Shown: positions 56,857 through 60,264 of the stretch, piece after piece
Numbering within the stretch: position 1 is the stretch's first letter
Layout of the letters: every line of letters starts with the position of its first letter
Origin: Gemmatimonadota bacterium
GTDB taxonomy: Bacteria; Gemmatimonadota; Gemmatimonadetes; Longimicrobiales; Gaopeijiaceae
Length of the DNA: 64,000 bases
Assembly (NCBI GenBank): GCA_027623325.1
Contig: JAQBXY010000016.1
Span: 1-64,000, forward strand
Reading direction: 5' to 3'
Notes under the pieces: generated by a model
The model's database searches: none
What the model saw: the letters and a program-made list of their open reading frames with translations, nothing else
Told to the model about the DNA's origin: nothing
Program-made: the position numbers and the translations under genes

Positions 56857-57771
56857 CTATCCGACGAGCTGCTTCGCGACGAACCAGAGGTTCGCGGGAC
56901 GTTCCGCCAGGCGGCGCATATACCAGGGGAACCACGCCGCACCGTAGCTAACCAACACACGCACCGTGTGTCCTGTGCGGGCGAGGCGTTCCTGCTCGGC
57001 GCGTTGGATGCCGAAGAGCATGGCGAACTCGTAGCGATCCTTCGCGAGGCCGAGTTCATAGGCGATGCGGTTCGTCTCGCCGATGACCTTCGGATCATGG
57101 GTGCCCAAGACGGGGCGACCTTCGCCTCCATTCAGGCGAGCCCGAAGAAGTGTCTGGGTGAGCTTCACGAAGTTCCGATCGACGTCGGCCTTCTTGGGAA
57201 AGGCCACACCCTCGGATTCGTTGTAGGCACCCTTCACGAGCCGAATGGCGGGATCGAGGGGAAGCAGGGACTCGAGATCGTCGGCCGTGCGGAACAAGTA
57301 GGACTGAAGGCAGAGCCCCACGTTTGGGTGATCCCGCTTCACTCCTCGAAAGAGATCCAACGTCCTGTCGACGTAACCCGAACCCTCCATGTCCACCCAG
57401 ACCAGCGTGGACGTCGAGGACGCGAGCTGCGTGAGTCGACTTCGAGCCTCCTCGAGGCCGAAGTCGAGGCCGAGCTGAGTCGGCTTGACCGAGATCTCTG
57501 TGTCGAGTCCTCGAGCCTCGATCTCTTTCAACGCGCCCCGGTAGTGACTCACCACCCCGTCGGCCTCGTCGAGCGAACGGAGGTTCTCACCGAGTAGCGT
57601 CGTGGTCGTGGCGATGCCCAGCTGGCCGAGCGCGCCAGCCTCTACCAGGGCGTCGCCCAATTCCTCCCCGGGCATGAAACGCTTCGTGGCCTTCTTGACG
57701 AAGCGGTAACGAGGGAGCTTTTCGGCGAGCAGCGGATTCGTCGAAGCCCAGAGGAGCGTGTTACGAAGCAT
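56857..57771 (-). CDS. Proline dehydrogenase
   Basis: FAD-dependent oxidation of proline to pyrroline-5-carboxylate, feeding electrons to quinone. The 304-residue monofunctional PRODH has a TIM barrel with SVKPTQLGL, WVDMEGSGYVDRTLDLF, RLVKGAYNE, GTHDPKVI, YEFAMLFGIQ and WFPWYMRRLAERPAN, the proline-binding Arg-Arg motif. The partner pyrroline-5-carboxylate dehydrogenase is not in the window. The upstream gene is M55 aminopeptidase, 15 nt away. Confidence 0.94.
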   Translation of the reverse strand: MLRNTLLWASTNPLLAEKLPRYRFVKKATKRFMPGEELGDALVEAGALGQLGIATTTTLLGENLRSLDEADGVVSHYRGALKEIEARGLDTEISVKPTQLGLDFGLEEARSRLTQLASSTSTLVWVDMEGSGYVDRTLDLFRGVKRDHPNVGLCLQSYLFRTADDLESLLPLDPAIRLVKGAYNESEGVAFPKKADVDRNFVKLTQTLLRARLNGGEGRPVLGTHDPKVIGETNRIAYELGLAKDRYEFAMLFGIQRAEQERLARTGHTVRVLVSYGAAWFPWYMRRLAERPANLWFVAKQLVG

Positions 57772-57786: not shown

Positions 57787-58686
57787 TCAGGATTGAACGA
57801 AGCGGTACATGAGCCGGATCAGCCGGTAGGCCTGGTCCGCGTCCTCAGCAGTATACGCGACCGTAAAGCCATCGACCTTCGACATGCCCGGAATGGACAT
57901 CAAGATGTCAACATGGGTCGTCGAAGCGAAGCGCATTCGTATGCGTACGGGACTCCCTAGGTAAAAAGGCTCGAATCCACCCCGCGCGAGCCGGTCGAGC
58001 GCCCGGTCTACACCTTCCGCGAGGAGTTCATGTACACGCTCAGGATGAATCAATCGCGCCGACTCGGGGGTCTCCGCGGTCTTGGTCGTGATGGTCACCG
58101 CGCCCAGCTGAGTCCCGAGCTCGTGAGCCGCGGCCGAATCACCTGCCGCGAGTATCACGGGTACCCCGTGACTGCCCGCGAAGGCCGCGTTCATGCCCCC
58201 CTCCCCCACCTCGACGTCGTTGAGCCAGAGCCCCTTCACCGAACCGGTGCCCGTGTGGGCTAGGAAGCCGTCCGGATCCCCCGCCTTCGCGTGATATCCC
58301 AGGAACAAGACCGCGTCGAACGACCCGTCGAGCCCCTGCACCATGCCGAGAGGCTTGATCGCGCCCTGGATATACGTCACCCGTGGATCGAGATCGGTGT
58401 GGTGGAGGTTCTGATGATCGCCGTGCGAATCGTTGATCAGCACGTCGGCATCCGGAAGCCTCTCGAGGATCGCATCGACGACCACATTGACTTCGGCGGT
58501 CACCAGCTCCCGGCCAAGTGAGTAGTCCTTCCCTGTACTCGTCGTCATTGCGCCCGTGCCGATGCCGCCGATGCCCTCCATGTCGACGGATATGAAGAAT
58601 CTCAGGGGACGCTCCTGCGCGAGCGCGGGTTGGGTCGTCAGGCTGAGGACGGCCACCACTGTCAACCAACGGCTCCGTGAAATCAT
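57787..58686 (-). CDS. Exported M55 family D-aminopeptidase (DppA-like)
   Basis: Zinc aminopeptidase that frees N-terminal D-amino acids from short peptides in Bacillus DppA. Here it has a Sec signal (cleavage after ALA, residue about 23) and so acts outside the cytoplasm. The metal and catalytic residues of DppA are found: Asp35 and Glu37 (SVDMEGIGG), His88 (NDSHGDHQN), His132 (LGYHAKAG), His144 and Glu162 (GEGGMNAAFAG). 299 residues. The start overlaps the stop of the upstream small gene by ATGA, suggesting coupling. Confidence 0.93.
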   Translation of the reverse strand: MISRSRWLTVVAVLSLTTQPALAQERPLRFFISVDMEGIGGIGTGAMTTSTGKDYSLGRELVTAEVNVVVDAILERLPDADVLINDSHGDHQNLHHTDLDPRVTYIQGAIKPLGMVQGLDGSFDAVLFLGYHAKAGDPDGFLAHTGTGSVKGLWLNDVEVGEGGMNAAFAGSHGVPVILAAGDSAAAHELGTQLGAVTITTKTAETPESARLIHPERVHELLAEGVDRALDRLARGGFEPFYLGSPVRIRMRFASTTHVDILMSIPGMSKVDGFTVAYTAEDADQAYRLIRLMYRFVQS

Positions 58687-58903
58687 CGGTCGGGTCCTTC
58701 TCCGAAAGGTGTGTAACCGGCCGCCCGGAGGGCCGCGCGGTACTCCGATACCTCACCCGCCATGAGCGCCGATACGGCGCCGGTGATCTCGGCTGCCGCA
58801 CGCTCCGCCTGACGGATCATGGCGCGGGTGTTCTGCGAAGGCGGGCCGTTGGCAACGGGCTAGCAAGAAGCGCGACAAGGGTCGCGAGACGACCGAGCCT
58901 CAT
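58683..58903 (-). pseudogene. Small exported protein gene, apparently frameshifted
   Basis: Minus strand. An ATG at 58903 with AGGAG seven bases upstream opens a signal peptide (MRLGRLATLVALLAS) but stops after 28 codons. The +1 frame, entered at a CCC run at 58857-58859, continues as VANGPPSQNTRAMIRQAE to GEGPDR and ends at 58683, overlapping the M55 gene start by ATGA. One extra C in that run would give an intact 73-residue protein with a sensible cleavage site (PVA-N). So this is either a real frameshift mutation, programmed frameshifting, or a one-base sequencing error. Function unknown; the mature part is helical. Confidence 0.6.
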
Positions 58904-58956
58904 CGAAGACTCCTGGTTGGGCGAAGGTCTGTTTCGTGATGGAAGGGGGTGAGCTT

Positions 58957-59022
58957 AGGTCCGGGGCTGGATGGGGGCCAGCACTACACGTGGAGTGGAC
59001 CGCCCACTCGACCTCCGGACCT
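58957..59022 (+). promoter_or_regulatory. Possible three-way-junction RNA in the aminotransferase leader
   Basis: In the 185-nt divergent gap, 58957-58964 pairs perfectly with 59015-59022 (8 bp). Inside are two hairpins: 58966-58970 with 58978-58982 (5 bp, 7-nt loop) and 58993-58998 with 59004-59009 (6 bp, 5-nt loop). The structure lies 66 nt before the aminotransferase ATG. It does not match a riboswitch consensus known to me. The rest of the gap shows no clear promoter. Confidence 0.3.
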
Positions 59023-59088
59023 GTTGCCCTCGCGTCGTCACCCAGACATTGTGGCGCTCGCTCGCCTCCCACCCGACGACGGAAGTCC

Positions 59089-60264
59089 ATGACGAACAGG
59101 GCCGATCGTACCGCGCTGCGCACCCACTCCTTCACCGAGTCCGTGATTCGAGAAATGACTCGGGTCGCTCGGCAGCACGACGCTGTGAACCTCGCGCAAG
59201 GCTTCCCGGACTTCCCTGCTCCGGAGCTTCTCAAGGATGCCGCGTGCGCGGCCATTCAGAACGACGTGAATCAATACGCGATCACGTGGGGAGCACCGAA
59301 TCTCCGTAACGCCCTCTCGCGGAAGTACGGCGAGCACTACGGAATGGAGGTCGACCCCGAACGCGAACTCACAGTGACGTGCGGAGGGACCGAAGCGATG
59401 GCCGCGGTCATGCTCGCCATCGTCAACCCAGGGGACGAAGTGATCGTGATGGAGCCCTTCTACGAGAACTACGGGCCCGACGCCGTTCTCTGCCAGGCGA
59501 AGCCTATCTTCCTGACGCTCGTCGCTCCGGACTACCGTCTCGATAAGGCGGCGCTCGAGGCCGCGGTGACCCCCAAGACCCGAGCGATCGTGATCAACAC
59601 TCCGAACAACCCCACGGGTCGGGTGTTCGATCGCGCCGAGCTGCAGGCCATCGCCGATGTCTGCATTGAACACGACATCATCGCAATCACCGATGAGATC
59701 TACGAGCACATCTACTACGAGGGGGAGCACATTCCGCTCGCCACCTTCGATGGGATGCGCGACCGCACGATCACGGTCTCCGGCCTGTCGAAGACCTTCA
59801 GCGTCACGGGTTGGCGGGTCGGAACCATTGTGGCCCCCGCAGATCTCAGCCATGCCATCCGGAAGGTTCACGACTTCTTGACGGTCGGCGCCCCCGCGCC
59901 CCTGCAAGAGGCCTGTGCCGTGGGCTTGAACCAGCTCGGACCCGAGTACTACAGCGACATGGTGGCCGGATACAAGGAGCGTGGGGCCGTGCTCGTCGCC
60001 GCGCTGCAGGAGGCGGGATTCAAATGCCAGCACCCGCAAGGTGCGTACTACGTTCTCGCCGACTTCAGCGACCTAAGTGACGAGGATTCGATGACCTTCG
60101 GACGACGACTGGCCGCAGAGGGCGGCGTCGCCCCCGTGCCTGGAGCCAGCTTCTTCAGTGTGCCGGAGCGTGGGCATTCCCTTGTTCGCTTCGTCTTTTG
60201 CAAACGCCTCGAGACTTTGCGCGAGGCGGGGGAACGCCTCCGCGCGTTCGCGGCTCGCGGCTGA
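59089..60264 (+). CDS. PLP-dependent class I/II aminotransferase
   Basis: Fold-type I aminotransferase resembling kynurenine/glutamine or methionine aminotransferases (KAT/YbdL group). Start at MTNRADRTAL gives 391 residues, with GGAAG just before. LAQGFPDFPAP is the substrate-side loop, NTPNNPTGRVF binds the cofactor, TDEIYEHI carries the Asp and Tyr contacts, and Lys235 in SGLSKTFSVTGWRVG forms the Schiff base. The C-terminal SLVRFVFCK holds the carboxylate-binding Arg. Amino-donor specificity is unknown. Seven nt before the next gene. Confidence 0.92.
   Translation: MTNRADRTALRTHSFTESVIREMTRVARQHDAVNLAQGFPDFPAPELLKDAACAAIQNDVNQYAITWGAPNLRNALSRKYGEHYGMEVDPERELTVTCGGTEAMAAVMLAIVNPGDEVIVMEPFYENYGPDAVLCQAKPIFLTLVAPDYRLDKAALEAAVTPKTRAIVINTPNNPTGRVFDRAELQAIADVCIEHDIIAITDEIYEHIYYEGEHIPLATFDGMRDRTITVSGLSKTFSVTGWRVGTIVAPADLSHAIRKVHDFLTVGAPAPLQEACAVGLNQLGPEYYSDMVAGYKERGAVLVAALQEAGFKCQHPQGAYYVLADFSDLSDEDSMTFGRRLAAEGGVAPVPGASFFSVPERGHSLVRFVFCKRLETLREAGERLRAFAARG

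Follow-up and report, generated by a model that had tools for sequence, protein, structure and literature searches.

Pseudogenes formed by internal deletion are a well-established general kind. The feature analyzed here resembles them in that both ends of a gene are kept, the middle is gone and the remaining frames are out of register; its one distinctive point is that the kept 3′ end contains the ribosome site of the gene downstream. Two protein families bear on the comparison. The first comprises the exported BNR-repeat proteins of the Sortilin/VPS10 type (PF15902, PF02012), whose intact orthologs in relatives have a C-terminal tail corresponding to a short body frame in our window (the whole 64,000-nucleotide stretch of Gemmatimonadota DNA that was analyzed); the window differs from these proteins in having no repeat and nothing more of the gene than its signal peptide and ~55 C-terminal codons. 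The second is peptidase family M55 (PF04951), the D-aminopeptidases, of which the gene downstream of the feature is an intact member (261.3 bits against a curated cut-off of 25). This gene differs from the DppA equivalog (NF058634) in scoring far under its cut-off (192.6 bits against 430), and we therefore do not call it DppA. Among the papers listed by literature searches on gemmatimonad sortilin genes and pseudogenes and on M55/DppA D-aminopeptidases, none dealt with the BNR-M55 pair, to judge from titles and the opening parts of abstracts. We consider it very probable that an out-of-frame deletion inside an M55-linked Sortilin/VPS10-BNR gene left this feature behind as a scar.

Anatomy of the two-frame feature

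The features of the locus are as follows.

56857 to 57771, minus strand: proline dehydrogenase gene (ProDH), conserved downstream neighbor (Pfam PF01619; synteny)
57787 to 58686, minus strand: intact gene of the M55 D-aminopeptidase type, which has a signal peptide of its own (Pfam PF04951, E 1.3e-77; orthologs)
58683 to 58859, minus strand: body frame, assigned to the deleted BNR gene as its 3′ end (~55 last codons and stop)
58817 to 58903, minus strand: 28-codon ORF, signal-peptide-like, stop at 58819-58817, assigned to the 5′ end of the deleted BNR gene
58845 to 58860, minus strand: putative deletion junction, approximate, placed by the likeness of the arms to loci L067 and L086
58936 to 60264, plus strand: aminotransferase class I/II gene (AAT), conserved divergent neighbor on the upstream side (PF00155; synteny; ORF start uncertain)

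The original prediction described a ribosome site and signal peptide leading to an early stop, followed in the next frame by a protein body ending in an overlap with the M55 gene, and this description is accurate. On the minus strand the sequence AGGAG precedes an ATG at 58903, which opens a 28-residue ORF. The body frame, one base out of register with the signal-peptide frame, is open for 58 codons (58859-58686), and its stop (58685-58683) overlaps the M55 ATG at 58686 as ATGA. The prediction went further and placed a one-base lesion at a CCC run, which we could not uphold: both frames are open together over ~40 bases (the 28-residue frame as far as 58817, the body from 58859), so that a one-base change anywhere in this overlap gives a continuous frame and the CCC run is not special. 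Near the putative junction the 5′ arm is similar to ...ASPL(SAQ) of L067 and the 3′ arm to ...(x)GPPSxNTR of L086.

The Shine-Dalgarno-like GGAGAAGGA of the M55 gene sits within the 3′ remnant, 5′ of the M55 start. Translation of M55 probably begins from this ribosome site of its own, and the scar would serve as leader sequence only, having no function beyond this. Since the 28-codon frame stops 130 bases short of M55, the old translational coupling through ATGA has probably gone. A scan of 58650-59150 found no sigma-70-type promoter, leaving retention of a promoter unsupported. The same scan picked out, within the signal-peptide codons, a terminator-like hairpin followed by T-rich sequence (58886-58871, minus strand; 0.1 expected), which we treat as incidental; if real, it could lower transcription into M55. 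Two further M55 paralogs of 32-34% identity are present in the same genome (G000:C1:26013-26855 and G000:C19:318-1127).

A large BNR gene upstream of M55 in relatives

The M55 gene was searched for in 59 genomes (the window's own and 58 relatives) and also in genome contigs, which gave 50 loci (L060-L109), the survey covering L060-L089; loci carrying two identifiers were counted once (for example L034/L061, L035/L060, L036/L064 and L037/L065). Directly 5′ of the orthologous M55 gene, 12 Gemmatimonadota relatives have one intact exported gene of the beta-propeller type, ~1,015 codons long and with a signal peptide (G001, G006, G013, G025, G030, L066, L068, L069, L070, L071, L072 and L075), although these copies are not all independent, L068, L069 and L072 apparently being near relatives of one another. 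Two more copies are open but run off the contig end (G010, 279 codons; G019, 871 codons). The intact orthologs match the Sortilin-Vps10 family PF15902 (E 4e-30, 2e-30) and BNR repeats. The gene order AAT / BNR / M55 / ProDH is common to the window's locus and to G013, G006, G001, G025 and G030, with the AAT-BNR spacer holding extra genes in some of the genomes. The large BNR gene usually adjoins M55 in this Gemmatimonadota group. There is no BNR match in L073, a surveyed locus that keeps M55 and ProDH, nor upstream of M55 in L074 and L087 (M55 65-68% identical), and the more distant surveyed M55 loci (L077-L085, L088, L089) are without the BNR gene.

Some of these loci carry additional genes. 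A second BNR gene, ~50% identical, lies directly 5′ of the M55-linked one as a tandem pair in three loci (L066 1-2805, L067 14-2770, L075 7-2739). A gene that we read from sequence alone as outer-membrane-type stands between AAT and BNR in L035 (6899-7387, minus strand; the same locus as L060, 2340-2828) and L040, adjoins M55 on its 5′ side in L073, and is left only as fragments in G011 and G001.

Both ends of the large gene are recognizable in the window. At the 5′ end, an ungapped comparison of the ATG region (bases -20 to +45) with 13 ortholog starts gave a mean identity of 0.44 and a best of 0.57 (L067); the match of the signal peptide to the ortholog starts is short. The controls were 186 ORF starts from the window's own genome, including 49 that look like signal peptides. 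None of the 186, nor of the 49 signal-peptide-like starts, reaches the window's mean or best identity. At the 3′ end, the body matches the last ~50 residues of the intact orthologs at 42-67% identity (tblastn), and does so at the C-terminus of the gene directly 5′ of M55 in all 14 genomes in which that end is open, while in 10 paralog loci from the genome to which the window belongs it has no credible match (best E 0.34). Identities between the window and 14 relatives, taken over 46 codons, range from 39 to 67%; the window's mean identity to the seven nearer relatives is 0.57, compared with 0.58 among those seven.

The body frame shows the coding conservation that the original prediction had called for, with a pN/pS of 0.35-0.75 against the copies of 14 relatives. 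The value for the window body is 0.52, as against 0.44 for the tails of intact relatives, in a test that cannot separate recent deletion from constraint. Because the window's identity and pN/pS about match those of intact tails, the tail probably evolved as coding sequence until recently. No decay following the deletion is seen in tail conservation; with the nearest relative distant (0.46 changes per site), the undecayed tail would say only that the event was recent.

The middle of the gene is absent from the window. When the full BNR protein of a relative was compared to the window's own genome, the sole orthologous piece was the 50 residues in the window; the remaining matches were 12 paralog loci of 31-43% identity, and the missing middle was not found elsewhere in the draft genome. 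These 12 loci form a Sortilin/BNR-type paralog family with open frames of ~900-1,135 codons on contigs C15, C22, C26, C31, C34, C44, C51, C54, C58 and C59 of the window's genome (G000); ten of the matches are contained in L050-L059. Since an intact gene has ~3,050 bases and ~220 are left here, about 2.8 kb would be missing.

A probable deletion scar and alternative readings

We propose that the ancestor carried an exported Sortilin/VPS10-BNR gene of ~1,015 codons between the divergent aminotransferase gene and M55, and that in the window's lineage ~2.8 kb was lost, from behind the signal peptide to the final ~55 codons. The leftover 5′ end would be a good ribosome site and a signal peptide whose reading continues in the wrong frame until it soon meets a stop, and the leftover 3′ end would still carry the M55 ribosome site and the ATGA overlap. 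An out-of-frame loss of this size accounts for the change of frame, and neither programmed slippage nor a point frameshift is needed to explain it. In kind, this is ordinary gene decay, a gene-loss scar before an intact peptidase gene.

The main rival to a deletion scar is mis-assembly, in which the draft jumped over the middle of a ~3 kb gene that is complete in the living organism, as might happen in a mixed population. The genome is a draft in 60 contigs, the join is sharp and out of frame, and the tail is still conserved, all of which would fit such an artefact. However, no ortholog of the middle is present elsewhere in the genome, where the best paralogs have 31-43% identity, the genome is rated 100% complete, and three sister genomes have lost the gene too, by other structures. 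We accordingly regard mis-assembly as improbable.

The original prediction offered decay, programmed frameshifting or sequence error for what it took to be a small exported protein, possibly a partner of the aminopeptidase. Decay was right in kind; programmed frameshifting, the point frameshift at CCC and the small partner protein are rejected, given that wherever the ~1,015-codon gene is intact, the body forms its C-terminal tail. A genuine 73-residue gene inactivated by one base or a sequencing error would have in its favor that the signal peptide and its start site, the conservation of the body frame and the ATGA overlap are all real, but no 73-residue protein stands upstream of M55 in the examined relatives, making the existence of such a gene exceedingly unlikely. 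Programmed frameshifting to a fused 73-residue product, for which two overlapping open frames do lie in the right order, has next to no probability, with the arrangement confined to this genome, no hint of a slippery site in the sequence, and the frame change explained by the missing segment. As for partnership with M55, the open copies in relatives are all parts of long frames, and what stands is that the large gene usually adjoins M55.

Repeated loss in the genus

The large gene has been lost in four of the eight genus genomes that keep this M55 ortholog (G000, G001, G003, G006, G007, G010, G011 and G013), and the four losses have four different structures; the search of the 59 genomes showed no close M55 ortholog in the six other genus members (G002, G004, G005, G008, G009 and G012). 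Besides the deletion scar in the window (G000), G003 retains the 5′ end alone, and G011 retains the 3′ end alone, which is interrupted by stops and abuts a fragment of an outer-membrane-type gene; the gene that is fragmentary in G011 lies between AAT and BNR in G006. The stretch before M55 in G007 has no BNR match and aligns with the AAT-BNR spacer of L034, and the loss there rests on this spacer alignment, the contig beginning 233 bases before M55. The M55 frame is open in all four loss genomes. A tree of M55 and ProDH from 15 genomes requires five state changes, at least 4 of them forced by the starred branches and with L073 scored as a loss, and its intact and lost rows are interleaved. A speculative and rather unlikely explanation of this pattern is repeated, independent removal of the propeller gene under selection against this partner, perhaps owing to a cost of surface exposure or of phage, while the upstream control region stays attached to an intact M55 gene that remains expressed.

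A puzzling split small gene is thus resolved as a routine deletion scar, with the warning that a signal peptide and a conserved short tail can together mimic a small secreted protein. The Sortilin/BNR-M55 pairing, conserved in this Gemmatimonadota group, and its repeated loss offer a modest clue to what the large paralog family does.
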